Shown here piece after piece: positions 18,205 to 53,192 of a DNA stretch of 64,000 bases. The stretch comes from Bradyrhizobium canariense (lineage in GTDB: Bacteria > Pseudomonadota > Alphaproteobacteria > Rhizobiales > Xanthobacteraceae). The translations under genes were made by a program, and so were the position numbers. A model generated the notes under the pieces. It was not told the origin of the DNA. It searched no databases and was given only the letters and a program-made list of their open reading frames with translations. How positions within the stretch are numbered: position 1 is the first letter of the stretch; every line of letters begins with the position of its first letter. The DNA lies in assembly GCF_900105125.1 (NCBI RefSeq), contig NZ_LT629750.1, positions 6,723,001-6,787,000 on the forward strand, read 5' to 3'.

Positions 18205-18225
18205 TTCTGAAACATAATTTATTGG
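18205..18225 (-). promoter_or_regulatory. TAAATT-N4-TTCAGAA dyad (site 1)
   Basis: The minus strand reads TAAATT-ATGT-TTCAGAA, a strong match to the recurrent intergenic dyad of this window. It lies 70-90 bases upstream of the small exported protein at 18293 and about 105 bases upstream of the divergent Tat-protein gene. A weaker relative (ATTAAATCTTTTGAATGA) begins near 18159. Confidence 0.6.
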
Positions 18226-18292
18226 CGGAAGTGCAATCGCGTTCCGATGTAGAGGCTCACCGCTACCCCATACGCTCAACCAGGAGATCAAG

Positions 18293-18559
18293 ATGAAATT
18301 CGCACTGATCGGCGCCGCCGCTGTTGCCGCGGCAGCTTTCGCAACGCCTGCGCTGGCGCAGGCCGTTATCTCTAACCCCGGCTATTGTGCCCAGTTCTAC
18401 CCGAACGCCAATTGCGAAAACTATGGAGCCGGCAATCCCTATACTGACGGCGGCTACTTTCGCGACGACAGGTGGCAGAACAGGAACGCCATGATCCCGC
18501 ATCCCGCGGCCGAGCCCAATGCGTATCGTTATCATGGCGGACCGAAATACGACGATTGA
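18293..18559 (+). CDS. Small exported protein
   Basis: An 88-residue protein with a signal peptide (MKFALIGAAAVAAAAFATPA, cleaved after ALA) and a short mature domain beginning QAVISNPGYCAQFYPNANCE, rich in Tyr, Asn and Pro with two Cys that could form a disulfide. AGGAG lies six bases before the ATG. The start of the mature part resembles that of the exported protein at 51501 (QAAIQEPGSFAFYYPNND), so they may be related. Periplasmic location is likely; function unknown. Confidence 0.8.
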   Translation: MKFALIGAAAVAAAAFATPALAQAVISNPGYCAQFYPNANCENYGAGNPYTDGGYFRDDRWQNRNAMIPHPAAEPNAYRYHGGPKYDD

Positions 18560-18787
18560 TAACATGGCCTAGCCGCTTCGAGCGGCATCCGAACGCGGAC
18601 GCAGGGGTGGGATTTGGCCCACCTCTGCGTTGCGGTACGGGAAGACCGGGAGCAAGAGACAGAGGATCACGAAGAGCAGGGCGATCAGCCTTGCCAAAGT
18701 TCGGCTGATCTTGCGTGATTCTAATGTGACCCCCTAAATTCAGAGTGGTCGGCGGACGTCCGCTTGGTGCGCGTTCTGGACTCAAGT

Positions 18788-18807
18788 CGGACCTCGCGTG
18801 AGGTCCG
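18788..18807. terminator. Hairpin downstream of porin
   Basis: A perfect eight-base-pair stem (CGGACCTC / GAGGTCCG) with a GCGT tetraloop, about 90 bases beyond the porin stop. It has no T-tract in the porin direction, so termination or transcript-end protection is inferred. The rest of 18560-18894 holds no supported gene; a perfect 12-base palindrome (GCGGACGTCCGC) occurs near 18757. Confidence 0.4.
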
Positions 18808-18894
18808 AAAAGTGTCCACAACCAGACTCATGCACCGCGGCAAAGCTTCTTCAAATCAGCTCGCCGGCGCGGGCTAAAAGCACCTGCAGGTTTC

Positions 18895-20379
18895 TCAGAA
18901 GCGGAAGCGAAGACCAACCGTGGGATCGATCGTGTTGCGATTAAGGTAACCGTTCGCCAAGCCGCCATTGACCTGTGAGAACATGATACCGGCGTAGGCA
19001 TCAAACTTTTTCGCGAACTGCCAATCAGCGACGAAAGAAACAGCGTCGAACGTCCCGTGGCAGTTTGCGAACGCTGCGGCGTTGGCGGCGCAATTGACCG
19101 ATGTACCAAAGGCGGGCTGGTCGTAGTGATAATAAGCGCCGATCACATCCAGATTGTCAGTGACGGCGTATTTCACTCCGGTCCAGAATACGTGGAATAA
19201 CTTGTCGCCGGCGTCGAAAGCCGTGTTGTTGATGTTCGTGCCGTTGATCGCACTGCAGCCGGCGCAGACGAAGTCTCCCGCGATATCGCTAAAGCCGGCA
19301 CCGGGGGCAAAGCGATTGCTGGGGGGCGCATATTGAATGAATTCATATCCAGCAAACAGCTTGACGGGCCCGTTGCTGTATTTGCCAACCAGCATCACGC
19401 TGGAATCATCGGAAAGCGTGGCGGTGGCGACCTGAGGCAACACCGCCGGCAGCGTATTACCGGCAAGCGCTATCGCCACGGCGTTCTGGACGTAGCTGCC
19501 AATTGCATCGAGCGAAAGCGTGCCGCCGGCCAAATTGGCGATGTCGCCGCCGATTTGGAACTGATAGGAACCCGTCGCGGCGTTGTTCAGCTCGTAGCCA
19601 CCGAATTGCCAGAGCGCTGCAACCCTGAACTGGCCAATGTTCACACGATACTTCACCGACGTGCTAAATCGGCAGTCTTCAGTGTCACCGACGCCGCAGG
19701 TGATCCCCTGCCAGCCTATCGGCGAAAAAGCGTACGAAGCGCCCATCGGATCGTAGGCGAAAACAGCGTCCAAAGTTAGCGAGTTCTGCCGGAAAACGGT
19801 CAGAGTGCCATAGGGCGAACTGACGCCCAAATAGCCCACGGAATTATAAAATTGCCCGGCCCGGCTTGAATCGGAGCCCGAGTTTTGGCTGGTGAGCGGC
19901 ACGCCGGCATTCTGAAGCACCGAGTGCGGTCCATTGGAAAATTGGAGAGAATAAGGATCGAACCCGGCTTGCAGATCGAAGATAAAAGCCCATCCGGGAG
20001 CGAACGGCTCGTTTCCCTTGATGCCGATGTTTGAATTGGACAAACCGTTCGGCGCGAGACTCCACTGCGGGCGATTGCTGTACTTCTGGATGAGATAATC
20101 TGCCCCGACGGCGGATGTCCCATTGAAGGGCGCTCCATGGCTAAGCCACGTCACACCTGCGTCGATCGTGCCGTAGACCGTGATGCCATTCCAGGTCAAT
20201 GGGCAGGCCGTGGCGACAAAGTCCTCAAGGCTGCTACACGTCGCTGACGTCGGCGGAGACTTCGTGGCGACGGCGGGCGCAGCCTTCGTTACCATTATGT
20301 CGTCGGCCGAAGCAGCCGTCGCGTACGCGACGCCAGCGAGTCCAAGAATGATCGCTGTGCAAACAGCAAATCTCTTCAT
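18895..20379 (-). CDS. Outer-membrane porin
   Basis: A 494-residue beta-barrel porin of the rhizobial Omp family. Seen: a signal peptide (MKRFAVCTAIILGLAGVAYA), a Cys-containing linker (TCSSLEDFVATACPL), the first strand WNGITVYGTIDAGVTW, alternating amphipathic strands, and the C-terminal strand PTVGLRFRF ending in Phe as needed for Bam-dependent insertion. GGGAGG precedes the ATG. It would allow diffusion of small solutes; specificity cannot be read. Flanked by intergenic hairpins and transcribed alone. Confidence 0.92.
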   Translation of the reverse strand: MKRFAVCTAIILGLAGVAYATAASADDIMVTKAAPAVATKSPPTSATCSSLEDFVATACPLTWNGITVYGTIDAGVTWLSHGAPFNGTSAVGADYLIQKYSNRPQWSLAPNGLSNSNIGIKGNEPFAPGWAFIFDLQAGFDPYSLQFSNGPHSVLQNAGVPLTSQNSGSDSSRAGQFYNSVGYLGVSSPYGTLTVFRQNSLTLDAVFAYDPMGASYAFSPIGWQGITCGVGDTEDCRFSTSVKYRVNIGQFRVAALWQFGGYELNNAATGSYQFQIGGDIANLAGGTLSLDAIGSYVQNAVAIALAGNTLPAVLPQVATATLSDDSSVMLVGKYSNGPVKLFAGYEFIQYAPPSNRFAPGAGFSDIAGDFVCAGCSAINGTNINNTAFDAGDKLFHVFWTGVKYAVTDNLDVIGAYYHYDQPAFGTSVNCAANAAAFANCHGTFDAVSFVADWQFAKKFDAYAGIMFSQVNGGLANGYLNRNTIDPTVGLRFRF

Positions 20380-20963: not shown

Positions 20964-21872
20964 TTATTCCTCCGCGTGACGCCGGTATTCGGTCGGCGTA
21001 AGTCCCGTGAATTTACGAAACGCCCTCGTAAACGAACTTGTTTCGCGAAAGCCGGTCTGCGCGCCGATCTGCGTCACCGAGAGCGCGGGCCTCTGCAACA
21101 GGCTCCTGGCGCGATCCATCCGGCGGGCCGAATGGTAGCGATGCGGAGGCACGCCGAAGGATTGTTTGAAGGCGCGTGCAAAATGAAAGAGGCTCAGGTT
21201 GACGAGCTCTGCAAGAGTGCCCAACGAAATTTCCTCCGCGAGATGCTCCTCGATGAATTCCACCACGCGCTTTCGCTGCCACGCCGGCAAGCCGCCACTA
21301 AGCGGCCTCGCTGTGGATGTTGTGCGGTCCAATCGGATGAGTTCGTGCATTAGTACGAGGCCCAGTGCCTCTGCGTACTGGCGGCTCCCTGGGTCGGAAT
21401 TCCCAACCTCAGCCTTGAGTTTGAGTGCCGTATCCCAGATGGCTTTATCGAAGAAGAACAGGCGCGGCCTGATCGCGGTGGTGATGCCAGATTCCAGATC
21501 GAACAACGGGTCCTGTAAATCGATATAGAAATAGGTGACGCGCGTCAGCACCCGTGGCGCCTGCCACCCGTAGAACCGACGCCCAGCAGGCACAAAGCTG
21601 AGCTTGCAATTGAATTCGCGTAAGGTTGATTTTGGCAAGCCATCGATAAGCGTCTCGCCGTCATCTCGCTCTGCGCGTTCGTAAGCGATCAGCAAATGTC
21701 TCCGAGCTTGAAAGCCGTATTCGAAAGTCTCGCGCCGGGTAATTCTCACATTGTCTGCCTGTATTGAACCCCAATGCGCCAGTCGGCGGCGAGCGATATC
21801 GGGCGGTGAAATTTCGACGATCGATGGAAGGGAGGGACAGAAACCCGAAACGCCGATACCGAGGTCACTCAT
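20964..21872 (-). CDS. AraC-family transcriptional regulator
   Basis: A 302-residue regulator. The C-terminal 100 residues hold the two AraC helix-turn-helix motifs: SLGTLAELVNLSLFHFARAF and SVTQIGAQTGFRETSSFTRA, ending FRKFTGLTPTEYRRHAEE. The N-terminal sensor part is the AraC-binding-like type seen in rhizobial stress regulators. The start at 21872 is chosen because GGAGG lies at ideal spacing; an upstream extension lacks one. It diverges from the hydroxyisobutyrate-dehydrogenase-like gene across a 427-base gap that carries a paired dyad (22058-22100). It may control that gene and the neighbouring aldo/keto reductase. Confidence 0.92.
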   Translation of the reverse strand: MSDLGIGVSGFCPSLPSIVEISPPDIARRRLAHWGSIQADNVRITRRETFEYGFQARRHLLIAYERAERDDGETLIDGLPKSTLREFNCKLSFVPAGRRFYGWQAPRVLTRVTYFYIDLQDPLFDLESGITTAIRPRLFFFDKAIWDTALKLKAEVGNSDPGSRQYAEALGLVLMHELIRLDRTTSTARPLSGGLPAWQRKRVVEFIEEHLAEEISLGTLAELVNLSLFHFARAFKQSFGVPPHRYHSARRMDRARSLLQRPALSVTQIGAQTGFRETSSFTRAFRKFTGLTPTEYRRHAEE

Positions 21873-22057
21873 TCTTGTTCCTCCGGACATCCGTATCGGC
21901 TCTCTTCCTCTGCCAGCATCTTTGCGTCGAGGATCTGGAAGTTGTGGCAGGAGCATACGATCACAAAGCCATCATTACCGCGCACGGACGAAGAGACATT
22001 CGTCCGCCTCAGGAGAATTACCGTCGAAGGCCAAGGTAAGCGGGTGCAATTTCGGCA

Positions 22058-22100
22058 CCATTAAATTTCGGTTCAGATAGCTAAATTCGATTTTATTCAG
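22058..22100 (+). promoter_or_regulatory. Paired TAAATT dyads, 20 bp apart
   Basis: Two dyads in tandem: TAAATT-TCGG-TTCAGA from 22062 and TAAATT-CGAT-TTTATT from 22082, start-to-start exactly 20 bases. By hand alignment 36 of 43 bases match the module at 50697-50739 (minus strand). It lies in the divergent region between the AraC regulator and the dehydrogenase at 22300. Confidence 0.7.
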
Positions 22101-24539: not shown

Positions 24540-24558
24540 CCTGACGGCGAATTTAATA
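24540..24558 (-). promoter_or_regulatory. TAAATT-N4-GTCAGG dyad
   Basis: Minus strand: TAAATT-CGCC-GTCAGG preceded by CTAT, as in other members of the family. It is in a convergent intergenic region, where no annotated start is near. Confidence 0.5.
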
Positions 24559-24777: not shown

Positions 24778-24800
24778 AGCCATTAAATTAGCATCCAGGA
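24778..24800 (+). promoter_or_regulatory. TAAATT-N4-TCCAGGA dyad
   Basis: GCCAT followed by TAAATT-AGCA-TCCAGGA, a member of the recurrent family, 45 bases beyond the stop of the cytochrome gene. Confidence 0.5.
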
Positions 24801-24844: not shown

Positions 24845-25381
24845 TCAATTCCGCGACGTGTTGTCGGTGTCTAAATCCGACGCAGATATCCGGCCGGGGA
24901 CGCGGATTCTGACAACGCCGTGGTTGAGAGCCTGGTGGCATGAATTACACGCGTCCGTCAGATCGGCATAAGCCTTGGCGAATGCCGCACCGTCTTTGGA
25001 TTGGATCGCGCTGTTGAGCTCCCTGAACGGCCGCTCCACGATGGAGGCTATCATCTCCGGAAAGGAGATATCGTGTTCAAGCGGGTGGGCGTGCCCGAGT
25101 CGATCGAATGCGCCGCGGAGATTTCCAAGCTCGTAGGCCGCAAATTCTCAGTTTCCATCCTGCTCGGCCCGCTGGAGCCGCTCGTGCCGCGGTTGAATCG
25201 TCGCAATCATCAGGTCACTGATGCTCGGCAGGTATTCGGTGGCACGGGGCGAGGGCGCGACTTCCGGCCCAGCGGCCGTGCCGCGCGAGGTCGCAAGACT
25301 AATCGCTGCGGCCGCGGCCATCGCGATCGCGGCAACCACGATCGGGCGGCGCCGGCTGCTCGCTGCGTCTGCCTCGATCAT
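24845..25381 (-). pseudogene. c-type cytochrome gene with one in-frame TGA
   Basis: The ATG overlaps the paoC-like stop (ATGA), and the frame runs to 24845 except for a single TGA at 25150-25148. The upstream part has a signal/anchor (RRRPIVVAAIAMAAAAAISL) and EYLPSISDLMIATIQPRHER. After the TGA the same frame continues as EFAAYELGNLRGAFDRLGHA, then DISFPEMIASIVERPFRELN and the haem motif CNSCHQ. The junction reads Asn-TGA-Glu where Trp (TGG) would fit, so one G-to-A change separates two coherent halves. The intact product (178 codons) would be a periplasmic cytochrome c taking electrons from the aldehyde oxidoreductase. It may be a real nonsense mutation or a sequencing error. Confidence 0.8.
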
Positions 25382-27579
25382 GCGCGCCTCGGCAGCCCGG
25401 AAAGCAGCTTGTCGAGCGTGATCGGGTAGTCTCGAATCCGGACTCCGCACGCGTTGTAGACTGCGTTGGCGATCGCGGCACCGGCACCGCAGATGCCGAG
25501 TTCGCCGATCCCCTTGCTCTTTAACGGATTGGACTTGTTGTCCAGCTCGGCAAGAAAAATCGCGTCGATGGCTGGAATATCGGCGTGCACCGGCACGAGG
25601 TATTCGGCCAGGTCGCGGTTGACGAAATAGCCGAAGCGGGGATCGAGCGTCATCTCTTCCTGCAGTGCAGCTCCCACGCCAAAGACCATCCCGCCGATCG
25701 CCTGAGAGCGGGCCGTCTTCGCGTTTAGGACGCGGCCGGCCGTGAACACGCCCAGCATGCGCCGCAGCCGGATTTCTCCGGTATCTTCGTCGACGCCGAC
25801 TTCGACGAAGTGCGCGCCATAGGATTGTTGCGAGAAATCCTTGTTGTTGCGGCCCGGCTGGATCTCGCCGTCGGCGTCCATCCCCGTGCCGACAAGGTCG
25901 GTCAGCTTTTTGGATTGTTCTCCGGATGCGATGCTGCTGTCGGCGAAGCGTGCGGTTGCCGGATCCATGCCGGCCGTCCGCGCCAGCTTTTCACGTAGGG
26001 CATTGCAGGCCTCGAACAGGGCCGAGCCCGAACTGCCTGCACCCCACGATCCACCCGAACCCGCTGCCTGCGGAAAGTTGGTATCGCCGAGTTCGACCCG
26101 GACGTGTTGCGTTGGCAGGCCGAGCATCTCGGCGGCGATCTGGGCCAGGATGGTATAGGTTCCGGTACCGATGTCGGTCATCGCCATTCGCACGGTGGCG
26201 GTACCATCAGGGTCCAATCGGACATTGGCCTTGGAAAGGTGGAGCGGGTTGCCGCGCGTCGCCGCGGCCATGCCCATTCCAACAAGCCAACGTCCGTCGC
26301 GGATCTGGCCTGGCTTCGCATTGCGCTTGTCCCATTCAAAGCGCCGCGCACCTTCCTGCATGCAGGCGATCAAGTGACGGCTGGAATAGGGAATATGCTT
26401 TTCCGGATCCTCGCTCGGCTCGTTTCGAATGCGAAGTTCGATCGGGTCGAGGTCGAGCTTTTCGGCAAGCTCGTCCATCGCGCATTCGAGTGCCATCAGT
26501 CCGACAGCCTCGCCGGGTGCGCGCATTGAGGATGCGACCGGAATATCCAGGGGCGCGAGACGATGTCGCGTCAGCCGATTGGGACCAGCATAGAGCGTGC
26601 GGGTTTGAAGGGCGGCGCCTTCGTAAGTTTGCTCGCTGGGTAAATTGCCGGAGAACACATCGTGGCCAATCGCGAGGATACGGCCGTCGCGATCGGTGCC
26701 CAGGCGCAGCCGCTGGATGGTGTCGGAGCGGTGCGTCGTGACGTGAAAGATCTGTTGCCGCGTCAGTGCGATTTTCACAGGCCGCTTGAGCTGCCGCGCG
26801 GCGATCGCCGCCAGGATGGCATCGGCATTGACCCAGAGTTTGCCGCCGAATCCGCCGCCGATGAACGGGCTGATCAGGCGCACATTCTCAATGGGAATTT
26901 TCAGGGTTGTCGCGATGGCCTGCTGACCCTGGTTGAGCATCTGGTTAGCGGTGTGCAGTAACAATTGGTCGCCGTCCCACATCGCAAGCGTGGCATGCGG
27001 TTCCATCATCGCATGACTTTGCAATGGGGTGGTATAGATCACGTCGATTTGCACCGGAGCGCTGGCGAACGCACCGGTGAAATCGCCAACCGCACTGTCG
27101 GCTGCCTGCGCATCGCTCGACTTTGGAGCGCGCGCCTCGGCGACGTTGGCACGGAGCGCATATTTCCCGGTCGACTGATCGTATTTCACATCCACCAGGT
27201 AAGCCGCCGCCCTGGCTTGCTCGAAGCTTTCGGCAACCACGAACGCAACCGGCTGGCCATAACGCGTCACTTGCGGCCCGGTGAGCACCGGGTGTGCCTC
27301 ACGGTGATTGCCGGTGCCCTGCGCGGGCGCGTTGCGATGGGTGAGAACCAGCGCGACGCCCGGCGCCTTCTCCGCAGCGCGTGTCTCGATCGATCTGATT
27401 GTTCCTTTTCCGATCGAGGCTTCCACGACAAAGCCATACAGCACGTTGTCCTGCTGCGTCTCGTAGGCGTAACGCGCGCCGCCGGTCACCTTCAATCGCC
27501 CGTCCACGCGGTCGAGCGGCTTGCCGACAATGCCCTGGGCATCGAGGGCATTTGGACCGACGGGTGAATTCATTTCCAT
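25378..27579 (-). CDS. paoC: Molybdenum-cofactor subunit of periplasmic aldehyde oxidoreductase
   Basis: A 733-residue xanthine-oxidase-family large subunit of the YagR/PaoC type. Seen: LRLGTDRDGRILAIGHDVFS, the Moco-binding stretches SPFIGGGFGGKLW and GSGGSWGAGSSGSA, and the catalytic glutamate E693 in KSKGIGELG. It has no own signal and would be co-exported with the Tat-tagged small subunit. It is the third gene of an operon (small, FAD, large subunit), 13 bases after the FAD subunit, and overlaps the cytochrome gene by ATGA. Expected reaction: oxidation of aldehydes (often aromatic) to acids. Specificity is inferred from the subunit type only; isoquinoline-oxidoreductase-like activity is the alternative. 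Confidence 0.9.
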   Translation of the reverse strand: MEMNSPVGPNALDAQGIVGKPLDRVDGRLKVTGGARYAYETQQDNVLYGFVVEASIGKGTIRSIETRAAEKAPGVALVLTHRNAPAQGTGNHREAHPVLTGPQVTRYGQPVAFVVAESFEQARAAAYLVDVKYDQSTGKYALRANVAEARAPKSSDAQAADSAVGDFTGAFASAPVQIDVIYTTPLQSHAMMEPHATLAMWDGDQLLLHTANQMLNQGQQAIATTLKIPIENVRLISPFIGGGFGGKLWVNADAILAAIAARQLKRPVKIALTRQQIFHVTTHRSDTIQRLRLGTDRDGRILAIGHDVFSGNLPSEQTYEGAALQTRTLYAGPNRLTRHRLAPLDIPVASSMRAPGEAVGLMALECAMDELAEKLDLDPIELRIRNEPSEDPEKHIPYSSRHLIACMQEGARRFEWDKRNAKPGQIRDGRWLVGMGMAAATRGNPLHLSKANVRLDPDGTATVRMAMTDIGTGTYTILAQIAAEMLGLPTQHVRVELGDTNFPQAAGSGGSWGAGSSGSALFEACNALREKLARTAGMDPATARFADSSIASGEQSKKLTDLVGTGMDADGEIQPGRNNKDFSQQSYGAHFVEVGVDEDTGEIRLRRMLGVFTAGRVLNAKTARSQAIGGMVFGVGAALQEEMTLDPRFGYFVNRDLAEYLVPVHADIPAIDAIFLAELDNKSNPLKSKGIGELGICGAGAAIANAVYNACGVRIRDYPITLDKLLSGLPRRA

Positions 27580-27592
27580 GCGTTCGTTCCCT

Positions 27593-28573
27593 TCAGGTCC
27601 GGGTCATCTCTGCCAGCACGCTGTGCAGGGTGCGCCGCGTCAGCGGTATCTTGAAATCGTTGCCGCCGAACCCGCGCGCGCCTTCGAGCACGGCATTTGC
27701 GGCTGCGTCGAAGGTGGTCGTGTCTGCGGAAGCGTTCGCCAGCTTTTGCTCCGCCTGCGGTGACCGCCAGGGCTTATGCGCCAGACCACCGAAGGCGAGC
27801 CGAGCCGAGCGAATCCGGCCGCGCGTGCTATCGACGATCGCGGCGACGGAAACCAGCGCAAAGGCGTAGGAGGCGCGGTCGCGTACTTTGCGGTAGACCT
27901 GCACACCTGGAGGCGGCGGAGGCAGCGTCACCGCAGTGACGATCTCGCCCGGCTTGAGCGACGTCTCGATCTCGGGAGTCCTGCCCGGAAGACGATGAAA
28001 CTCCGCGATCGGAATGACTTTGGTATCGCCCTCGCGGTTCGACGTCTCTACCTTGGCATCGAGTGCGCGCATCGCGACAGCCATATCCGACGGATGCGTC
28101 GCGATGCATTGGTCGCTGGTGCCCAGGATGGCGTGAATACGGTTGAAGCCGGCGAGCGCCGCGCAGCCGGAGCCGGGGCTGCGCTTGTTGCAGGGTTTTG
28201 AGATGTCATAGAAATAGTAACAGCGGGTTCGCTGCAGCAGATTTCCGCCGGTCGTTGCCTTGTTGCGCAACTGTGCGCTGGCGCCTGCCAGCAATGCACG
28301 GCTCAGGACGCCGTAACGCTGCCGTACGCGAGGGTCGGCCGCGAGATCGCTGTTTCGAACCAGCGCACCGATGCGTAAGCCGCCTTCCGGTGTCTCGTCG
28401 ATCTTGTCGAGCGGCAGCCGATTGATATCGATCAAGGTAGATGGCGTCTCGACCTGCAACTTCATCAGGTCGAGCAAATTGGTGCCGCCGGCAATGATTT
28501 TCGCGCTAGGTTTGACCGCAGCGGCGGCGGCACCGGTGGCTGTATCTGCGCGTTGATAGGTGAAGGCTTTCAT
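27593..28573 (-). CDS. paoB: FAD subunit of periplasmic aldehyde oxidoreductase
   Basis: A 326-residue CoxM-type FAD-binding subunit ([35 protein letters not shown]). It carries the additional Cys set CYYFYD...[13 protein letters not shown] (about residues 125-146), which in the YagS/PaoB group holds an extra 4Fe-4S cluster, separating it from ordinary xanthine dehydrogenases. The ATG overlaps the stop of the small-subunit gene (ATGA). It would pass electrons between the 2Fe-2S subunit and, probably, the downstream cytochrome c. Confidence 0.9.
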
Positions 28574-29235
28574 GCCGGCGTTCCTGCAGCTTGTTTAATA
28601 GCGGCCACGATGTTGGGGTAGGCTGCGCAGCGGCAGATGTTACCGCTCATCCTCTCGCGAATTTCCGGATCGGTGAGTTCAGCGACCGGTTGCGTCAGGT
28701 CCTCCGTCACGTAGCTCGGCATGCCCAGCCGGCTTTCGGCCAGCATTCCGATGGCGGAGCAGATCTGGCCAGAGGTGCAGTAACCGCACTGAAAGCCGTC
28801 ATGCTCGACAAAAGCCGTCTGCAGCGGATGCAGATTCTCGCCTTCGGCCAGCCCCTCGATCGTGGTGATGGATTGGCCGTCATGCATCACTGCAAGCGTC
28901 AGGCAGGAGTTAATGCGCCGCCCTTCGACCAGAACGGTGCAGGCGCCGCATTGGCCGTGATCACAACCTTTCTTCGAGCCTGTGAGTGCGAGGTGTTCTC
29001 GCAGAGCATCGAGCAGCGTTGTGCGGGGATCAAGCGTCAGCGAATGAGGGTGGCCGTTGATCTGAAGTTCGACATTCACAGGCGCTGGGGGCGGCCCACT
29101 TTCGTCGATCGGGCCGGCCGCAAAGACGGCACGCGGCAGCGTGGTCAAAAGCAGAGCGGTGGTTCCAGTCTCGATCACAGTGCGGCGGGTAACCTCAGTT
29201 CTGTCGAGCGCAGTATTGGATTCGTACTCGTCCAT
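28570..29235 (-). CDS. paoA: 2Fe-2S subunit of periplasmic aldehyde oxidoreductase, Tat signal
   Basis: A 221-residue small subunit with two 2Fe-2S clusters: the plant-type ferredoxin motif [14 protein letters not shown] and the second cluster motifs [15 protein letters not shown] and [12 protein letters not shown]. The N-terminus has a twin-arginine signal ([20 protein letters not shown]), which directs the complex to the periplasm and distinguishes PaoA/YagT from cytoplasmic CO- or xanthine-dehydrogenase subunits. First gene of the paoABC-cytochrome operon; the 95-base gap upstream toward the cupin gene may hold its promoter. Confidence 0.92.
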
Positions 29236-29796: not shown

Positions 29797-29816
29797 CACT
29801 AAATTGGAGTTTAGAA
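29797..29816 (+). promoter_or_regulatory. TAAATT-N4-TTTAGAA dyad
   Basis: CTAAA-TTGGAG-TTTAG, a perfect inverted repeat and the best symmetric member of the family. It lies 60-80 bases upstream of the minus-strand cupin gene start, where an operator or promoter would sit. A half-site-like TTTAGAG occurs 23 bases earlier. Confidence 0.65.
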
Positions 29817-31313: not shown

Positions 31314-31333
31314 CATTAAATTGAAGTTCAGAA
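31314..31333 (+). promoter_or_regulatory. TAAATT-N4-TTCAGAA dyad
   Basis: CCAT followed by TAAATT-GAAG-TTCAGAA, an exact consensus member, about 70 bases upstream of the bicupin start and about 105 bases beyond the RND permease stop. Confidence 0.6.
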
Positions 31334-36962: not shown

Positions 36963-36979
36963 GTCTGAACTTTATTTTA
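36963..36979 (-). promoter_or_regulatory. TAAAAT-N4-TTCAGAC dyad
   Basis: Minus strand: TAAAAT-AAAG-TTCAGAC, one mismatch in the left arm, 114 bases upstream of the YdeP-type start. Confidence 0.5.
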
Positions 36980-40465: not shown

Positions 40466-40554
40466 ATCAATCGCTCCGTCGTAAAAATGGGATAGCTTCT
40501 GCCGTTCGAAACTCGATCGGATCACCAAATGATAAGGGCAGCGTACGGAGGAGC

Positions 40555-40593
40555 CATTAAATTGAGATTTAGGACATTAAATTCGAATTCAGG
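40555..40593 (+). promoter_or_regulatory. Paired TAAATT dyads, 20 bp apart, upstream of rpoH
   Basis: TAAATT-GAGA-TTTAGGA starts at 40558 and TAAATT-CGAA-TTCAGGC at 40578, exactly 20 bases apart. The pair is 90-130 bases upstream of the rpoH start. The rest of 40529-40860 holds no supported gene. Confidence 0.7.
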
Positions 40594-44700: not shown

Positions 44701-47309
44701 CAGATCCGATCGTATTCTCGGCGCGCTTCTTCTTCTGTTGGATGCGGCGACCAGTGGATGCCCAAACGCCCGAGGCAATCGAGACCGACGGCAATGGCGC
44801 GCGCGTTCCGACCGACGGTCGTGTACAGATCGACGCACACGCACACAACGGTCGCCCGCTCCACCGTACTTGCGGCGCGGGTCGAAAGCACATTCAACCG
44901 CTGCTCCGCTTCTGGCAGCGCTCCGGTGAGGAGCTCGCATTCGGCCCGGTGCAGTTCCAGCGCAAAGGTGAGTTCGTGCCGGCGGTCCCAGGAGTCTTCC
45001 GGCAACAGGGCCGCACCGGCGGTCAGATAGGTGATCGCCGCGGCGTAGGCGGTCGTGGCTTTGGCGCGCCGGCCGGCGATCAGGTTGAGTTCGGCCAGTT
45101 GCTCGCGCTCGTCTTGTGAGGTGATCAAGGCGGCGCCGCGGTTGAGCTGATTGACGATTTCGAAGATCGTCTCTTCGCGCTTTTCTGCGGGCGTATGCGC
45201 CACGAGCAGCCTTCCGATCAGGAGGTGCGCCTCGGCACGCACCCGCTCCGGTATGAGCGAATAGGCGGCCTCCTGGACACGGTCATGGATGAACCTGTAC
45301 GAGCCCTCCAGGTGCTCGACCAGTTCCAGACGAACGGCTTCCCAGAGATCCGAACAGACCTCGTCGTTCGATTTTCCGAGAACGGCCGAAAGCATCGTGA
45401 TTTCGGCGACGTTGCCGAGGCAGGCGAGCCGCTGCAACGCAGCCTGGGTGTCGACGGGCAGGCGGGTCAATTTCCCGACCATAAGGTCCACCACGTTGTC
45501 AGTGTATCGCTTGGCGTGAAGGCGATCGAGCTCCCAGCGCCAGCGCGCCGCTTCATGATCGAAGCGGAGCAGCCCCTCTTCGGCGAGCGCGGAAATGAAC
45601 TGAATGGCGAAAAACGGATTGCCACCCGTCTTCTCGTGCACCAGTCGCGCAAGCGGGGCGGCCCGGTCGGGCGCGCAGCGAAGCGTATCCGCAATGAGCC
45701 GGCCCAGGTCTTCCTGGGCGAGCGGCGCAAGTCTAATCTCCTGCACGGACGCGCCCGCCTCGCGGATAGCATCGAGCTTCCGGATCAGCGGATGAGCGGC
45801 ATCGACCTCGTTGTCGCGATAGGCGCCGATCAGCATGAGGTGCTGCAGATCCGAGCGGATCAACAGATCCGCGAGCAAGTCGAGCGTCGCCGCGTCAAGC
45901 CACTGCAAATCGTCGAGAAAGAGTGCGAGCGGATGTTCCGGTCGGGCAAACACACCAATAAATCGGCGGAACACCAGTTGGAAACGGCTTTGCGCCTGCT
46001 TCGGTTCAAGCTCCGCGACCGGCGGCGGCTCACCGATGATGAGCCTCAGTTCGGGGATGAGGTCGGTCATGAGCCGTGCATTCGGGGCCAGCGCCTCCAG
46101 AAACGCGCCGTGCCAGATCTCCAGCTCGGTGTCGCTCTTGCCAAGAAGCGGTCGCACAAGGCTCTGAAAAGCCTGCACCAGGGTCGAATAGGGAATGTCG
46201 CGCTTGTACTGATCGAACTTGCCCGATGCGAAAAGGCCGCGCGGCGGCAGCAGTGCCTTGTGCAGTTCGTTCACGACCGAGGATTTACCGATGCCGGAAT
46301 AGCCGGTGACCAGCACCAGCTCCGGCGCGCCGTTTTTGACAATGCGGTCGAAGGAAGCGAGCAGGGTCTCGACCTCGCGCGCTCTGCCATACAGTTTCTC
46401 GGGGATCAGCAGCCGGTCGGGAATGTCTTGTTGGCCCAGCGGGAAGTCATCGATGTGACCTCGGGCTTCCCAGTCGGTCAGGCACTGCCGCAGATCGCGC
46501 TCGACACCAGCGGCGGTTTGGTATCGCTCCTCGGCGGTTTTGGCGAGCAGCTTTAGGACGAGGGCGGAAATCACGGCCGGAACCGTCTCCAGCCGCTCGC
46601 TTGGCGGCACCGGCTTTCTGGCGATATGGCAATGGACCCACTCCATGGGATCGGCCGCCGTAAACGGCAGTGAGCCCGTGAGCATCTGGTAGAACGTGAC
46701 GCCGAGCGCATAGAGGTCGCTGCGGGCGTCGATCGAGCGGTTCATTCGTCCGGTCTGTTCGGGCGCCATATAGGCGAGCGTGCCCGCGATCGACGCTGGC
46801 GGCGCGGGAGCTTGGCGTTCGCGCGGCAGACGCGAGGCAATGCCGAACCCCGTCAGCCACACACCGCCGCTTGCAGCATCCAGCAGGATATTTGCCGGCT
46901 TGATGTCCTTGTGGATTAGGCCTCGCTCATGCACTTGGCGCAGCACCCCCGCGAGAGGGATTGCGATGCGCAGGAAATGCGATACGTCCAGTGGCTGGCC
47001 AAGCAGCCGATCGAGCGGCGCACCGCCGGGATCTTCAAGTACCAGCGTCGTGCGGTCGTTGTGGTGTGTCAGCGCGACGGGTCGCGCCGCCCACGCACCA
47101 TCCAGGTCGTCCTTCAGTCCGTATTCGTGAGTGAGGCGATTGAGGCTGTCGAATGTTGGCTGCTCTGCGGCGGGAAACACGACGAGGACCGTGTTCCGGT
47201 TGCCGTCGGCGCCATCGCGCCATCCCCTGCAGAAGACGCGATCGCCATCCTCCCACACCACCCGGAGGCCACTATCCCCGCCAACGTCGAACCAAGAGGA
47301 TGAGATCAT
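41769..47309 (-). CDS. Giant hybrid: kinase-like, AAA ATPase, TPR, GAF, PAS and histidine kinase
   Basis: An 1846-residue cytoplasmic signalling protein. Residues about 15-280 have a Ser/Thr-kinase-like fold with LIHKDIKPANILLD (Asp135, Asn140) and GTLAYMAPEQTGRMNRSID, but the Mg-binding DFG is TGFG (153-156) and no Gly-rich loop or clear VAIK lysine is visible, so it may be a pseudokinase. An AAA_16/PknK-like ATPase follows (P-loop GYSGIGKSS at 336-344; Walker B LALFLDDLQWLD), then TPR-like helices (about 700-1300), a GAF domain (about 1320-1480), a PAS domain (about 1490-1605) and a transmitter with His1629 in [13 protein letters not shown] and ATPase motifs [15 protein letters not shown] and [10 protein letters not shown]. 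No response regulator is adjacent. The class occurs widely as trifunctional kinases; its ligand and partner are unknown. Confidence 0.93.
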   Translation of the reverse strand: MISSSWFDVGGDSGLRVVWEDGDRVFCRGWRDGADGNRNTVLVVFPAAEQPTFDSLNRLTHEYGLKDDLDGAWAARPVALTHHNDRTTLVLEDPGGAPLDRLLGQPLDVSHFLRIAIPLAGVLRQVHERGLIHKDIKPANILLDAASGGVWLTGFGIASRLPRERQAPAPPASIAGTLAYMAPEQTGRMNRSIDARSDLYALGVTFYQMLTGSLPFTAADPMEWVHCHIARKPVPPSERLETVPAVISALVLKLLAKTAEERYQTAAGVERDLRQCLTDWEARGHIDDFPLGQQDIPDRLLIPEKLYGRAREVETLLASFDRIVKNGAPELVLVTGYSGIGKSSVVNELHKALLPPRGLFASGKFDQYKRDIPYSTLVQAFQSLVRPLLGKSDTELEIWHGAFLEALAPNARLMTDLIPELRLIIGEPPPVAELEPKQAQSRFQLVFRRFIGVFARPEHPLALFLDDLQWLDAATLDLLADLLIRSDLQHLMLIGAYRDNEVDAAHPLIRKLDAIREAGASVQEIRLAPLAQEDLGRLIADTLRCAPDRAAPLARLVHEKTGGNPFFAIQFISALAEEGLLRFDHEAARWRWELDRLHAKRYTDNVVDLMVGKLTRLPVDTQAALQRLACLGNVAEITMLSAVLGKSNDEVCSDLWEAVRLELVEHLEGSYRFIHDRVQEAAYSLIPERVRAEAHLLIGRLLVAHTPAEKREETIFEIVNQLNRGAALITSQDEREQLAELNLIAGRRAKATTAYAAAITYLTAGAALLPEDSWDRRHELTFALELHRAECELLTGALPEAEQRLNVLSTRAASTVERATVVCVCVDLYTTVGRNARAIAVGLDCLGRLGIHWSPHPTEEEARREYDRIWLQLGSRPIEELVDLPMMTDPASLATLNVLTKVFAAAMYTEANLACLVICRAVNLSLDRGNSDGSTFAYVMLGAIAGARFGDYRGGLRLGQLGYELVEQRRLWGSQARVYNQFGTHVLPWTRHFKDCRDLLRRAFEVANKNGDLTFSAYSCHALTTNLLAVGDPLPEVQRQAEHGLAFADKAQFRVVIDLIAIQLGLLRTLRGLTPKFGSFNDAEFDEIRIERRLAANPDLARAEFSYWTRKLQARFLAGDYTSAVNAASRAQSLLWIARYAVEAAEYHFYGALSLAAVCDAAAVDQRRQHVAALVAHHRQFEVWATNCPSNFENRAALVGAEIARIEGREIDAERLYERAIRSAHDYGFIHNEALANELASRFYAARGFEKIARVYLQEARYGYLRWGADGKVRQLEHIHLHLRDPPIPASLAATIGAPVERLDVGTVLKAAQTVSGEIELGKLIEKLLRIAVEHAAAERGLLILCPDDEPRIAAEATTGRGQVELTLREAALSPAELPEAVLHYVIRTGESVILEDASAQNQFSTDEYISRKLPRSILCLPLMKQSKLIGLLYLENNLASHVFTPDRISVLELLASQAAISLENARLYNDLGEREARIRRLVDSNIIGIMIGDSRGRILEANEAFLDMLGYSREDLIAGRIRWTKLTPAEWAAADQDALDQMSATGSCKPFEKEYFRKDGSRVPILVGGAFFERKRDEGVVFAIDMTDRKLAEDKLRASERRLLEAQMELAHVNRVTTMGQLTASIAHEVNQPLAGVVANAEACLRWLDRGTPDLDAARRSVKWIIDDGNRANEVIQRVRSLANKTSVEKMPLNINDVVREIAALVQRELTSHQISLQMELVTTLPMIPADRIQLQQVIINLVMNGIEAMQSITDRPRELIIRSRQEDAQQVLVSVTDAGVGMPAANADRLFDAFFTTKSSGMGMGLSICRSIIEAHGGKLWATDNLSHGATFQFTLPVNADTVS

Positions 47310-47674: not shown

Positions 47675-49042
47675 CTAACTGGCTCGCTTTGGTGGAGAAC
47701 CCGGCTTAAGTGACGACACGCGCCAAACCGTGTTTCCAACATCGTCGGCGATCAACAACCCGCCACTCCGGTCGACTGCCAAACCAACTGGCCGCCCGCG
47801 CGCGTGATCGTTTGCATCGAGGAAGCCTGTGACGACATCCTGCGCCGGCCCGCTCGGCCGTCCACCGCTGAAGGGCACGAAGACAACTTTGTAGCCGTTA
47901 AGCGGCGTTCGATCCCAGCTTCCGTGTTCGCCGACGAACGCACCGCTGCGGTAGTTGGCGGGAAGATCGGTGCCTGTGTACATCGCTACACCTAGCGGCG
48001 CCACGTGGGAGCTCAGCGCATAGTCCGGCACGGTTGCTGTGGCCACCAGATCGGGCCGCTGCGGTTCGACGCGTGGGTCCAGATGCTGGCCGTAATAGCT
48101 ATAGGGCCAGCCATAGAAGGCTCCGTCTCGCACCGAGGTCAGATAGTCCGGAACCAGGTCGGGCCCGATCTCGTCGCGCTCGTTGGCGATGGCCCAAAGC
48201 TTACCGGTCTCAGGCTCCCACTGCAGCCCGGTGGGATTGCGAATTCCGCTGGCGAAGATGCGATGCGCGCCCGATGCCCGATCGACCTCCCAGATCGCGG
48301 CGCGTTCGTATTCGGCCCCGATCCCGTTTTCGGTGATGTTGCTGTTTGAGCCGACCCCGACATAGAGCTTGGAGCCGTCCGGACTGGCCAACAGAGCCTT
48401 CGTCCAGTGATGATCGATGGGGCCGCCAGGAAGATCGGTGAGCTTGGTGCCCGCGGCCGTGATGCTGGTTTGTCCATCCTGATACGGATAGCGGACGATC
48501 GCATCGGTGTTGGCGACGTAAAGATCGTGACCAATCAGGGCGACGCCAAACGGCGAGTTGAGATGATCCAGAAACACGGTTCGCAATTCGGGAACGCCAT
48601 CGCCTTTGGTATCGCGTAGCAACGTGATGCGGTTTGCGTCCTTTGCCTTGGCGCCGGCGAACGATTGTACCCAGCCAGTGATGATGTCCTTGGGCCGACT
48701 GATCGGCGCTTTCGGACCATTGCTCTCAACCACCAGTACGTCTCCATTGGGGAGAACGTAGAGGGACCTCGGATGCTCAAAGCCGGTCGCCAATGCATGG
48801 ACCTGCAATCCCTGCGGCACCGCGGGAGTTTCGTCGTTTCCCCATCCGACAGCTTTTGCGATCCGTATCGGCGGCATCAAATATTGCTGCAGCTTGGGCA
48901 GCACGGGGTTGGCGCCGATCTGCACTTTCGGGTCGCCGCCATGATCATCACAGCCGGCGAGTCCCAAGCCGGCAAAGGCGACAACAATGGCGGCGAGACG
49001 CGGTAGCTTCGCCGTACGTGAAATTCCGAGTGCGTGCATCAT
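47675..49042 (-). CDS. Sorbosone/glucose dehydrogenase-like PQQ-type lipoprotein
   Basis: A 455-residue six-bladed beta-propeller of the soluble glucose/sorbosone dehydrogenase family. The N-terminus has a lipoprotein signal with lipobox LAGC (about residues 26-29), so it is membrane-tethered in the envelope. Seen: GFEHPRSLYVLPNGDVLVVE, DHLNSPFGVALIGHDLYVAN, the PQQ-site region GPIDHHWTKALLASPDGSKL, FASGIRNPTGLQWEPETGKLW and EHGSWDRTPLNGYKVVFVPF. GGAGG precedes the ATG. It starts three bases after the stop of the DUF2231 gene, so the two are one operon. Substrate unknown; family oxidise sugars or related alcohols with PQQ. Confidence 0.9.
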   Translation of the reverse strand: MMHALGISRTAKLPRLAAIVVAFAGLGLAGCDDHGGDPKVQIGANPVLPKLQQYLMPPIRIAKAVGWGNDETPAVPQGLQVHALATGFEHPRSLYVLPNGDVLVVESNGPKAPISRPKDIITGWVQSFAGAKAKDANRITLLRDTKGDGVPELRTVFLDHLNSPFGVALIGHDLYVANTDAIVRYPYQDGQTSITAAGTKLTDLPGGPIDHHWTKALLASPDGSKLYVGVGSNSNITENGIGAEYERAAIWEVDRASGAHRIFASGIRNPTGLQWEPETGKLWAIANERDEIGPDLVPDYLTSVRDGAFYGWPYSYYGQHLDPRVEPQRPDLVATATVPDYALSSHVAPLGVAMYTGTDLPANYRSGAFVGEHGSWDRTPLNGYKVVFVPFSGGRPSGPAQDVVTGFLDANDHARGRPVGLAVDRSGGLLIADDVGNTVWRVSSLKPGSPPKRAS

Positions 49043-49045: not shown

Positions 49046-49516
49046 TTATCCTCCAACACGATGGCGATTTGCCAGGGCTATGCCAACCCAAGCCGTCAAC
49101 AAGAGAACGACAACGACGAGCCCGGAAAGCATCAGGCCGGTCGGGACCACCGCGGTGTAGCCGTCGCGGCTATGAACGAAGGCGTTTATCAGAGAGAGCG
49201 AGACAGCGAGCGCGTAACCAACCACGCGGGGCCAAGCCGGCCTGTCGATTTGTCTGCTGCCTGCAAGGTCGATCACATAAGCGATGGCGGCAAAGCCCGC
49301 CATTATCAGACCCGCGGTGATCAGCCAGATCGAGAATCTCTCCCACAGCACATCAGGAATCCGCCAATAGACGAGATCGGTGATGAAAGCGCCGGCGAAA
49401 TACGCGGCGGAAAACGACACCACCATTTTATGCATCGGCCGTCCACGAGGCTTCGCGGTCGGCCTCAAATCGGCATCGCCAAAGAAAGTCGCTTCCGTGA
49501 TCATAGCATGCTTCAT
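49046..49516 (-). CDS. DUF2231-type small membrane protein
   Basis: A 156-residue integral membrane protein with about four helices (VVSFSAAYFAGAFITDLVYW, WLITAGLIMAGFAAIAYVID, VVGYALAVSLSLINAFV, GLMLSGLVVVVLLLTAWVGI) and the DUF2231-like start GRPMHKMVVSFSAAYF. AGGAGG lies eight bases before the ATG. It forms an operon with the dehydrogenase lipoprotein, which starts three bases after its stop. Such pairs have been seen with periplasmic dehydrogenases, where the membrane partner may pass electrons or anchor the complex; that role is inference. Confidence 0.85.
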   Translation of the reverse strand: MKHAMITEATFFGDADLRPTAKPRGRPMHKMVVSFSAAYFAGAFITDLVYWRIPDVLWERFSIWLITAGLIMAGFAAIAYVIDLAGSRQIDRPAWPRVVGYALAVSLSLINAFVHSRDGYTAVVPTGLMLSGLVVVVLLLTAWVGIALANRHRVGG

Positions 49517-49645: not shown

Positions 49646-49661
49646 TAAATTCGAGTTTATT
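49646..49661 (+). promoter_or_regulatory. TAAATT-N4-TTTATT dyad
   Basis: CTAAATT-CGAG-TTTATT, the same subtype as the second site at 22082. It is about 130 bases upstream of the DUF2231-dehydrogenase operon start. Confidence 0.55.
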
Positions 49662-49975: not shown

Positions 49976-50016
49976 CATTAAAAGCCGATTTAGAATTCTC
50001 AAATTGAAATTCAGAT
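49976..50016 (+). promoter_or_regulatory. Paired dyads, 21 bp apart
   Basis: TAAAAG-CCGA-TTTAGAA starts at 49979 and CAAATT-GAAA-TTCAGAT at 50000, so the offset is 21 rather than 20. Each has one degraded arm. The pair lies beyond the 3' end of the thioesterase gene rather than near a known start. Confidence 0.5.
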
Positions 50017-50696: not shown

Positions 50697-50739
50697 CTTC
50701 ATAAAATCAAATTTAGCGTTCTGAACCGCAATTTAATAG
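50697..50739 (-). promoter_or_regulatory. Paired TAAATT dyads, 20 bp apart
   Basis: Minus strand: TAAATT-GCGG-TTCAGAA (50735 to 50719) and TAAATT-TGAT-TTTATG (50715 to 50700), 20 bases apart. By hand alignment 36 of 43 bases agree with 22058-22100. It lies in the divergent gap between the thioesterase and XapX genes, about 100-150 bases from each start. Confidence 0.7.
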
Positions 50740-50885: not shown

Positions 50886-51146
50886 ATGCGACCTTATCTC
50901 GCTTCTCTTATCTTGGGTGTGGCAGTCGGAGTCGTCTATGGGCTCGTTAAAGTACGGTCTCCGGCACCGCCTGCGATCGCACTTCTCGGCCTCCTCGGTA
51001 TGCTGGCTGGCGAGCAGGCCGTATCGCTCGTTAGATCGCATGTATTCAAAAGCGGCCTACAACCCGGCGTGGCCTCAGGCGGTCACGGTGAAGCGGCGAT
51101 CTCTGACGACGTTCGCCGCACCGAGGGAAACGAACGGCGCTTTTGA
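50886..51146 (+). CDS. XapX-domain small membrane protein
   Basis: An 86-residue protein whose first 50 residues match the XapX domain: MRPYLASLILGVAVGVVYGL, then VKVRSPAPPAIALLGLLGML and AGEQ. Two transmembrane helices are expected, with a polar C-terminal tail. AAGGAG precedes the ATG. XapX proteins are widespread small inner-membrane proteins of unknown function. The 354-base gap downstream (51147-51500) holds only a paired dyad. Confidence 0.85.
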   Translation: MRPYLASLILGVAVGVVYGLVKVRSPAPPAIALLGLLGMLAGEQAVSLVRSHVFKSGLQPGVASGGHGEAAISDDVRRTEGNERRF

Positions 51147-51344: not shown

Positions 51345-51387
51345 CGACGTAAATTTCAGTTTAGCATCTTGAAGCGCAATTTAGTGG
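51345..51387 (-). promoter_or_regulatory. Paired TAAATT dyads, 20 bp apart
   Basis: On the plus strand TAAATT-TCAG-TTTAGCA starts at 51350 and TGAAGC-GCAA-TTTAG at 51370. Read on the minus strand it aligns with the modules at 22058 and 50697, beginning CCAC-TAAATT-GCGC-TTCAAG. It lies about 115-155 bases upstream of the exported protein gene at 51501. Confidence 0.65.
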
Positions 51388-51500: not shown

Positions 51501-51821
51501 ATGACCAAATTCAAGATTCTCAGCGCGGCAGCCATTCTGTCGCTGACGTTCGTAACGCCGGTATTCGCGCAGGCGGCTATCCAGGAGCCGGGTTCGTTCG
51601 CATTTTACTATCCGAACAATGATATCCTGAACGGCGGCCGGCCTACACCGGCGGCACGCATGGACGCCGAGGCGGGTTTGGGACCGTTCAGTGGCAGTTA
51701 CGCTTATGCCGCCCCGGAAGGCAGTGCGAATGGTGGGTCTTGCGCCCAGCGTTACCATTCCTACGATCCGTCATCAGAGACGTTCCTTGGATATGATGGC
51801 CGCCGGCACGCCTGCAAATAA
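51501..51821 (+). CDS. Small exported protein with BA14K-like C-terminus
   Basis: A 106-residue protein with a signal peptide (KILSAAAILSLTFVTPVFA, cleaved before QAA). The mature part starts QAAIQEPGSFAFYYPNND and ends in CAQRYHSYDPSSETFLGYDG and RRHAC, the BA14K-type motif common in rhizobial and Brucella exported proteins; two Cys bracket it. GAGG precedes the ATG. BA14K proteins are envelope proteins (immunoreactive and lectin-like in Brucella); the role here is unknown. A strong hairpin follows 46 bases after the stop. Confidence 0.85.
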   Translation: MTKFKILSAAAILSLTFVTPVFAQAAIQEPGSFAFYYPNNDILNGGRPTPAARMDAEAGLGPFSGSYAYAAPEGSANGGSCAQRYHSYDPSSETFLGYDGRRHACK

Positions 51822-51867: not shown

Positions 51868-51908
51868 TGCAGAAGGCCGCATCATCGGCTATGGTGCGGC
51901 CTTCTGCA
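51868..51908. terminator. Long hairpin after the BA14K-like gene
   Basis: A perfect 14-base-pair stem (TGCAGAAGGCCGCA / TGCGGCCTTCTGCA) with a 13-base loop, 46 bases after the stop of the BA14K-like gene. No T-tract follows. Probably a transcript end or stabilising structure. Confidence 0.6.
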
Positions 51909-52104
51909 TGAGCTATGTTCAGGCAAGGGCCATGGCGGGCTGCGTCCCCATCAACGGCACTGGATCGGCTAGATTGAAACAGGCGGAGCGATGCTCGGCA
52001 AGCGGCGCTTGGCTCGGTGAACGACAACGAAGACGCCTTTAAAAGTCCCGGCAGCCTAACCCGGCTAGCGTTATGCCCAGGTTGTGTGGAAACAGCCTCG
52101 ATCC

Positions 52105-52121
52105 TTAAAACAGAATTTAAT
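52105..52121 (-). promoter_or_regulatory. TAAATT-N4-TTTAAG dyad
   Basis: Minus strand: CCAT then TAAATT-CTGT-TTTAAG, directly upstream of the proposed small RNA at 52110-52233. Confidence 0.5.
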
Positions 52122-52233
52122 GGGACTGGCGGATTGCTGAACCTATACCAGGGTTGTGCCGGGACCCCCATCCGGCACTCCTCCCTGCCAGACTTCGGCC
52201 CCAGCTTTCTGCCCTCGCTGGGGCCGTTTCTTT
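52110..52233 (+). ncRNA. Candidate small RNA ending in an intrinsic terminator
   Basis: Two stable hairpins lie side by side in non-coding DNA: GTGCCGG / CCGGCAC (52156-52178) and CGGCCCCAGC / GCTGGGGCCG (52196-52226), the latter followed by TTTCTTT as a textbook rho-independent terminator on the plus strand. The nearest upstream plus-strand gene ends at 51821 and already has its own hairpin, so the terminator is unexplained by an annotated gene. A short independent transcript is the simplest reading; its 5' end is a guess. Confidence 0.45.
52196..52233 (+). terminator. Rho-independent terminator
   Basis: A perfect 10-base-pair GC-rich stem, an 11-base loop and TTTCTTT immediately after the stem on the plus strand. 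Confidence 0.75.
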
Positions 52234-52433
52234 GGCACCGTTCGCAGCACTTGCATTCATGGCTTGCGCGCCATCTCCCGCGATGGAGCTGGCTCGGTTC
52301 GTTTTGCCTGCGAGCCCATCCTTAGGACGCACGAGCACGTGCACCCGCTGTATCGCAGAACGTTCCAATCTTGCCTGTCCGATGGCGGCGGCCATGGTTT
52401 ACCCAAAACCAGAGAAGAGTTGCCACAGAAAAA

Positions 52434-52706
52434 TTATCTGTAAGGCCCGGAGTCCCCTGGAAAACCCATGGGGGTTTGTGTTGATTGGTCGTATTTATCG
52501 ATTGAATTACCAGAGCTGTGGAACGTGTTGCTCGATGTGGGGGGCTTCGAATACCGGCCCTCCGACGGCCACACATAGGAACCCGCCGACGAAGCTGCCG
52601 ATGATCCAAATTCAGGAGTTGCAGCTTCAGCAGTTCTGGCTTGCGCCAGCGCGACCGTGCCCGAGAGCACGAATGCAGTTGCCAGTACGATTTTCGTGAG
52701 CTTCAT
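52434..52706 (-). CDS. Small exported protein
   Basis: A 90-residue protein with a signal peptide (MKLTKIVLATAFVLSGTVAL, cleaved after ALA) and a Ser/Pro/Tyr-rich mature part (YVWPSEGRYSKPPTSSNTF ... DKYDQSTQTPMGFPGDSG). No Cys and no known domain. AAAGGA precedes the ATG. Similar short exported proteins are common in rhizobia; function unknown. A dyad (52759-52774) lies just upstream of its start. Confidence 0.75.
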   Translation of the reverse strand: MKLTKIVLATAFVLSGTVALAQARTAEAATPEFGSSAASSAGSYVWPSEGRYSKPPTSSNTFHSSGNSIDKYDQSTQTPMGFPGDSGPYR

Positions 52707-53192
52707 GGTTGTGTCCTTTCCTTCGGTTGAAGGTAGGAAGTTTGCTCGACCGTTCGATTAAAATGTTCTTTAAGTGGGAGCCGCGATCATCGCGCTCTTG
52801 CGGGTGATGAACAGATACGTCAGCAACTTGCCGCCGATGCCCGGTGTATGCCCAGATCATCCGCGAGCCGATACACAACGGCAAAGATCGGATGCGGATC
52901 GTTTGTGATGAACCGTTGCAGCCGATCTCCTTAGTTCGCTGCGTTTTGATCGGCGCATCGATCATGTGGGCTGTTCCATTGATTGGAAGCGAAGGCTACG
53001 CGGATAATGGCGAAACAAATCACACGCTGCATCGCCTGCTGAACACAGGCCCTTCCATCCGCGGCGGATCAGCGGTGGCGAGGTTGCTTGATCTGGCTGA
53101 CGGAAACGCGCGAGATTTCGCCTGTTGACGTTACAAACATTTCACGGAGAAATCCTGTTGAAACCGTCCGCCATTCGGGCCATCTGGCCAGT
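52707..53192. other. Intergenic region with one dyad
   Basis: About 490 bases with no well-supported gene. A 94-codon plus-strand frame from 52844 has a hydrophobic stretch but no ribosome site or known motif. A dyad is at 52759-52774. Confidence 0.4.
52759..52774 (+). promoter_or_regulatory. TAAAAT-N4-TTTAAG dyad
   Basis: TAAAAT-GTTC-TTTAAG, 53-68 bases upstream of the minus-strand small exported protein start, a promoter or operator position. Confidence 0.5.

Follow-up and report, generated by a model that had tools for sequence, protein, structure and literature searches.

A recurrent directional box in an accessory gene block of Bradyrhizobium canariense and a candidate OmpR/PhoB-family regulator for it

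The window analysed here is a stretch of 64,000 nucleotides from the genome of Bradyrhizobium canariense (contig NZ_LT629750.1, positions 6,723,001 to 6,787,000), in which a short box with the consensus TYTRAA-N4-AATTTARTGG, read towards the gene, recurs between the genes of an accessory block. This motif is real, specific, directional and regulatory. It is likely to be the predicted binding box of one OmpR/PhoB-family response regulator which, with its histidine kinase, would switch on about eleven of the block's units, the box overlapping the -35 position.

Boxes and genes of the block

Twenty box sites above 17 bits were found with a 22-column matrix between window positions 17209 and 53600. 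All except the site at 52104, which falls inside a doubtful open reading frame (ORF), lie outside gene calls, and 14 face an assigned gene. Four of these 14 assignments (29800, 41444, 50700 and 50720) were made with the rule that a box points to its gene, and are not independent support for that rule. In the list below, exported proteins are so called from a reading of their N-termini, and genes are placed on shared transcripts from their order.

8956-9783 (-): candidate-regulator paralog with a winged-helix DNA-binding domain; Pfam Trans_reg_C only
18206..18221 (-): box, 25.2 bits; 80 bp ahead of an exported 88-aa protein, 18293-18559 (+)
22062..22097 (+): tandem boxes 22062 and 22082, 25.7 and 23.6 bits; facing an AraC-type gene, 20964-21956 (-)
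24540..24555 (-): box, 17.9 bits; no clear gene
24784..24799 (+): box, 21.2 bits; no clear gene
29800..29815 (+): box, 28.3 bits; facing a cupin gene (Pfam), 29332-29736 (-), chosen by the direction rule
28570-29235, 27593-28573 and 25378-27579: three molybdo-dehydrogenase genes after the cupin gene 29332-29736
31317..31332 (+): box, 27.7 bits; facing a bicupin of the oxalate decarboxylase family, 29978-31246 (-), above the cut-off of TIGR03404
36859..36874 (+): box, 22.1 bits; facing 35817-36680 (-), ahead of MFP 34548-35729 and RND 31438-34551
36964..36979 (-): box, 22.1 bits; facing a YdeP-type oxidoreductase, 37081-39447 (+)
40558..40593 (+): tandem boxes 40558 and 40578, 25.5 and 26.5 bits; facing an RpoH-type sigma gene, 39533-40528 (-), above the cut-off of TIGR02392
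41444..41459 (+): box, 21.1 bits; facing the gene of a probably exported, Gly-rich protein at about 40861-41319 (-), chosen by the direction rule
49646..49661 (+): box, 22.6 bits; facing DUF2231 49046-49516 (-), then a GSDH-like gene, 47675-49042 (-)
49979..50015 (+): boxes 49979 and 50000, 21 bp apart, 24.5 and 18.4 bits; no clear gene
50700..50735 (-): tandem boxes 50700 and 50720, 26.1 and 25.0 bits; facing a DUF1427 gene (Pfam), 50886-51146 (+), by the direction rule
51350..51383 (both strands): overlapping opposed boxes 51350 (+) and 51368 (-), 18.2 and 21.7 bits; 51368 faces the gene of an exported protein of BA14K type, 51501-51821 (+)
52104..52119 (-): box, 23.8 bits; no assigned target, inside a doubtful ORF

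The middle of the block is occupied by a gene that no box faces (41769-47309, -), encoding a protein of 1846 aa with Ser/Thr kinase, AAA, GAF, PAS and histidine kinase domains. The G+C content is 0.575-0.615 per 10 kb in the block and 0.572-0.645 in the surrounding region. A tRNA-linked island was considered and rejected: a tRNA-Met gene precedes the block's first box by 4 kb (L008:13045-13121; G000:C1:6716045), but no second copy longer than 14 bases of this stretch, and no attachment repeat marking an integration site, was found in the 464-kb region around the window.

Specificity, direction and geometry of the box

Ten unambiguous window sites seeded the matrix, which was then refined with the 464 kb of genome around them; its threshold was taken from shuffled sequence. 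This matrix replaced an earlier iterated 28-column matrix which, run at a low threshold, had drifted into coding sequence (1719 matches) and was dropped. It finds 36 matches in the 464 kb. In a comparison with its reversed and its complemented forms over the same 464 kb, the true matrix gave 32 matches and neither of the two controls gave any. Since the matrix was trained on the window region, the counts inside the window are partly in-sample, whereas the tests on other genomes described below are out-of-sample. The composition of AT-rich spacers does not account for the boxes: matches above 17 bits averaged 0.06, and never exceeded two, in 200 Markov sequences that imitate the noncoding part of 17209-53600, compared to the 20 sites observed. 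Likewise, the core CTAAA-N6-TTTAG with at most one mismatch has seven matches in the window for 0.24 expected. The first-pass annotation, made by eye, had listed 22 sites, of which the matrix recovered 20 above 17 bits; the sites at 41619 (which the annotation itself called a variant) and 52759 were not recovered, and five coordinates had to be shifted by one or two bases, to 18206, 36964, 50720, 51368 and 52104.

Strong sites are concentrated in and around the block. Among 22 matrix matches above 21 bits, 19 fall within genome positions 6720245-6775101 (window -2752 to 52104), the others being two near 6828077 and one at 6588724. The pattern CCAYTAAATTNNNNTTYAGR, with at most one mismatch, occurs at 13 places genome-wide, 11 of them in 6720244-6775123, one at 6828314 and one at 3205630. 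Exact matches to TAAATTNNNNTTYANR number 17 in the 7.84-Mb genome, 11 of them inside the 55-kb block (binomial p 2e-20, an in-sample value, as the pattern was derived from the same block). Looser patterns show only a mild genome-wide excess over their reversed control (15 vs 8, 113 vs 78 and 100 vs 60), which points to strong sites clustered locally as the source of the signal. In 400 kb of control sequence (20 stretches), 14 matches were found at a lower matrix threshold, and three reach at least 18.4 bits. The four stretches L029, L032, L034 and L039 had been picked for a prior pattern match and hold two of the three strongest matches, so this control overstates the background. In agreement with the first-pass annotation, the window has no site above 17 bits before 18 kb or after 53 kb, but further members appear beyond its ends, at window coordinates -2752, -1331, -1313, 105080 and 105314, with one far box of 21.7 bits at -134273.

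The position of the box is kept at several, though not all, orthologous promoters, as seen in stretches of other genomes that were fetched for box matches and in which the block is rearranged (homologs were kept at 45% identity or more, with a match beginning within the first 40 residues; the counts include the copy of the window). The tandem pair stands at -98 to -133 in the four copies of the AraC gene and is present at seven of nine copies of rpoH; a box is found at -137 to -144 in 5/6 copies of the DUF2231 gene and upstream of the bicupin gene in 6/8. In genome G052, boxes lie ahead of a malonate decarboxylase alpha subunit and of a protein with a cytochrome-oxidase COX_ARM domain (loci L092 and L093).

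The consensus was derived from a pool of 181 sites of at least 19 bits, taken from the window and from the fetched loci of related genomes. For the search of a -10 element, 61 of these sites were removed as redundant by flank identity, and the direction of the 120 distinct sites left was taken from the box alone, without use of gene calls. In 31 of these 120 sites the motif TANNNT follows, 17 times at +42 and 14 times at +43, for a background of 0.83 per position. Promoter spacing in B. japonicum is given as 16-18 bp (PMC4842269), and with this spacing the -35 hexamer would fall on the ARTGG end of the box. Such a geometry is that expected for an activator contacting or replacing the -35 element, and we infer activation from it. 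There are 20 neighbouring pairs at 60 bp or less: 17 share a strand, at 19-21 bp, and three are opposed, at 18 bp. Some of these pairs come from one promoter seen in several related genomes. The box had been described as a dyad. Its core, CTRAA-N6-TTTAR, appears roughly symmetric and may be nearer to an inverted repeat than to a direct one (the self-correlation is 0.57 with the reverse complement and 0.20-0.25 with direct shifts of 10-12 bp), but the TGG flank is present on one side only.

A candidate two-component regulator

In two genomes with few boxes (G005 and G020), these surround a small locus made of a response regulator, a histidine kinase, an RpoH-type sigma factor and an RND pump. 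The corresponding regulator gene in the genome of the window (G000:7543968, locus L138) lies about 0.76 Mb beyond the window, with the kinase gene behind it and a box at 7543425-7543444. A search with the DNA-binding part of the regulator among 60 genomes of the genus, keeping the best match per genome, separated 32 genomes with a match of at least 222 bits from the others, the next best reaching 187 bits. The strict box was found in 14 of the 60 genomes (55 matches, for none of the reversed pattern), and all 14 belong to the 32 that carry the regulator, compared to 0/28 of those that do not (Fisher p 3e-5, which treats related genomes as independent and overstates the evidence). Leaving out the genome of the window, the strict box is present in 13/31 genomes with the regulator and 0/28 without.

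The regulator gene is itself preceded by the box. Of the 35 ortholog loci of these 32 genomes, 34 have a box between -400 and -60 of the gene, facing it at 28; random stretches of the same loci gave 2.2 on average and eight at most. The matrix had been trained on the window region and never on regulator loci. Five of the loci (L071, L078, L087, L109 and L110) had been fetched for box matches, and after their exclusion the box is found at 29 of 30, facing the gene at 23. By comparison, none of 20 loci of OmpR-type paralogs with 49-52% identity has a box at -400 to -60, and six of them have a weak match (13-14 bits) farther upstream, pointing away. From a further set of 80 named loci, 64 were placed in four groups and scanned from -400 to -40, where 0.054 boxes are expected per locus; the other 16 were scanned outside this grouped count. 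The box is present at 7/7 Bradyrhizobium loci (six facing), at 10/13 loci of Acetobacteraceae and at 14 of 33 Pseudomonas loci, in the latter always facing the gene and at -73 to -77. A kinase gene adjoins the regulator gene in L109, L110 and L138, and a kinase match is present in all 35 loci.

On the basis of its domain make-up, conserved receiver residues and adjacent kinase, the regulator is assigned to the OmpR/PhoB family. It has full-length matches to solved regulators of the OmpR family, the best being PrrA (1ys6), and its close homologs carry a receiver (PF00072) followed by the output domain Trans_reg_C (PF00486). D52 and K102, which we take to be the phospho-acceptor aspartate and the conserved lysine of the receiver, are invariant across 13 aligned orthologs. 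It is above the cut-off of none of the 25 NCBIfam families among the matches listed. The best match, TIGR01387 (cztR_silR_copR), reaches 204.4 bits for a cut-off of 279.2, and the kinase reaches 181 bits for a cut-off of 293 with the kinase partner family of the same system. PmrA (NF007928, 153.7 bits vs 330), CpxR (NF008199, 118.3 vs 341) and PhoB (TIGR02154, 181.6 vs 296.2) are also below their cut-offs, and among the 120 matches listed the named homologs are all called just “OmpR family response regulator”.

The predicted system resembles OmpR/PhoB-family regulons such as those of PhoB, PmrA and CpxR: the kinase gene adjoins that of the regulator, the output domain is a winged helix, and the place of the short box near the promoter suggests contact at -35. 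It differs from them by a box sequence of its own, and from the cztR_silR_copR systems by the absence of metal genes among its assigned targets. The box of DsbR in Pseudomonas aeruginosa is TTA-N8-TTAA, the spacing of which would equal that of the box described here. DsbRS resembles the present system as a two-component system of envelope stress; it has been described in connection with copper and disulfide-bond genes, in passages that name no box (PMC10141476). No published account of the present box was found in open-licence papers, considering their titles and the start of their abstracts. We know of no rhizobial box, among those of FixK, Irr, RegR and EcfG, that resembles it. While OmpR-family regulons as such are already known, the box, its target set and the receiver-less companion of the regulator are new.

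Alternative explanations and the receiver-less paralog

In the proposed mechanism, the regulator encoded at 7.54 Mb would be controlled through phosphorylation by its partner kinase, would bind the box as a dimer and, once bound, would activate together the approximately eleven stress- and envelope-related units. The first-pass annotation had proposed one dimeric regulator acting on the whole accessory block; this fits, and the regulator now has a candidate, encoded elsewhere in the genome, with dimer binding presumed. Several observations weigh against this reading. Within the window, the box at 51350 points away from any assigned gene, five boxes have no clear target gene, and a second possible reader of the box is encoded at 8956-9783. 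Of the 32 genomes with the regulator, 18 lack the strict box, the related genomes behind the Fisher test are not independent, and the box ahead of the regulator gene falls to 26/35 loci at 16 bits and 22/35 at 19 bits. It is present at 5/11 named loci of the Burkholderia type, facing the gene at only one. The TANNNT element is lacking at +42/+43 in 89 of the 120 distinct sites. The three YdeP homologs have only outward-pointing boxes, and the box found ahead of six of eight copies of the 18293 gene is reversed in four of these six.

The paralog at 8956-9783 provides the main alternative. Its DNA-binding part is 59% identical to that of the L109 regulator, with a nearly identical presumed recognition helix, and Pfam recognised no receiver in its N-terminal part; the paralog may be a phosphorylation-independent reader of the same box. 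HP1043 of Helicobacter pylori offers a model: this OmpR/PhoB regulator, whose receiver is highly degenerate, acts independently of phosphorylation (PMC8345958). It resembles the paralog in its degenerate or unrecognised receiver and differs from it as an essential orphan, whereas the genome with the paralog also has an intact relative. In this genome, the paralog could be the main and constitutive reader of the block's boxes, the intact regulator mattering only for its own locus. The position of the paralog beside the block and its similarity to the regulator favour this possibility, as does the fact that the four box-bearing genomes with a full-length paralog hold 33 of the 55 strict matches. 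However, ten of the 14 box-bearing genomes have no full-length paralog at the threshold used, including three with dense box clusters (G018, G027 and G050), and no box above 17 bits lies near the paralog gene itself. We regard this explanation as unlikely. Full-length paralogs were found in five of the 60 genomes, as seven copies, that of G030 having an alignment that crosses a TGA.

It is very improbable that the motif, rather than being an activator site, is recognised in the promoter by an alternative sigma factor, for instance the block's RpoH-type protein. The fixed downstream element would be in line with it, as would the boxes ahead of RpoH-type genes and the presence of such genes close to the regulator in some loci. 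Yet the length of the box and its distance upstream are both too great for a -35/-10 pair; the box also occurs in tandem and stands ahead of the regulator in loci where the search for RpoH found no sigma gene, including that of the window's own genome. The earlier annotation had raised a nucleoid protein and a degenerate repeat family. That the motif is a silencer site of nucleoid type, or an AT-rich repeat that has degenerated and spread through the block, is hardly credible and is not supported here. The sites are AT-rich and the G+C of the block, given above, would suit this explanation, but the null results of the reversed and the complemented matrices, the directionality of the box and its fixed spacing and phasing to a -10-like element argue otherwise, as do its conservation at several orthologous promoters, the number of sites distinct by their flanks (120/181) and its recurrence before one regulator gene across genera, which it tracks.

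If activation by the intact two-component system is retained, a system present in 32 of 60 genomes of the genus gains a predicted box, about eleven target units and a promoter logic. These units include a sigma factor, RND efflux, an oxalate-decarboxylase-type cupin, molybdo-enzymes and exported proteins, and this would show how a large accessory block can come under a single host switch encoded in trans. The bicupin and YdeP in the block, together with the malonate decarboxylase and cytochrome-oxidase-type subunits of G052, give a hint that the signal is acid or organic-acid stress. More tentatively, and with more doubt than confidence, the block could be a mobile regulon pre-wired with the box of this switch, plugging into the host signalling wherever the switch exists and bringing receiver-less copies that would set a phosphorylation-independent level at the same boxes.

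Other short or partial matches to the DNA-binding domain were observed at G052:C1:3723346-3723651, G026:C1:6585995-6586360, G024:C1:2368982 and 4255673, and G031:C12:88975. All the genomes concerned also hold the intact regulator, and these matches possibly reflect repeated truncation of one regulator. To the right of the paralog, the region 11580-17208 (+) encodes a PAS histidine kinase, a LuxR-type response regulator (14207-14974), a lone receiver (15013-15468) and a HAMP histidine kinase. The LuxR-type regulator, the lone receiver and the AraC-type protein of the block had also been considered as candidate readers of the box. The HAMP histidine kinase, beside which no OmpR-type regulator is encoded, is 59% identical to the partner kinase of the candidate regulator.

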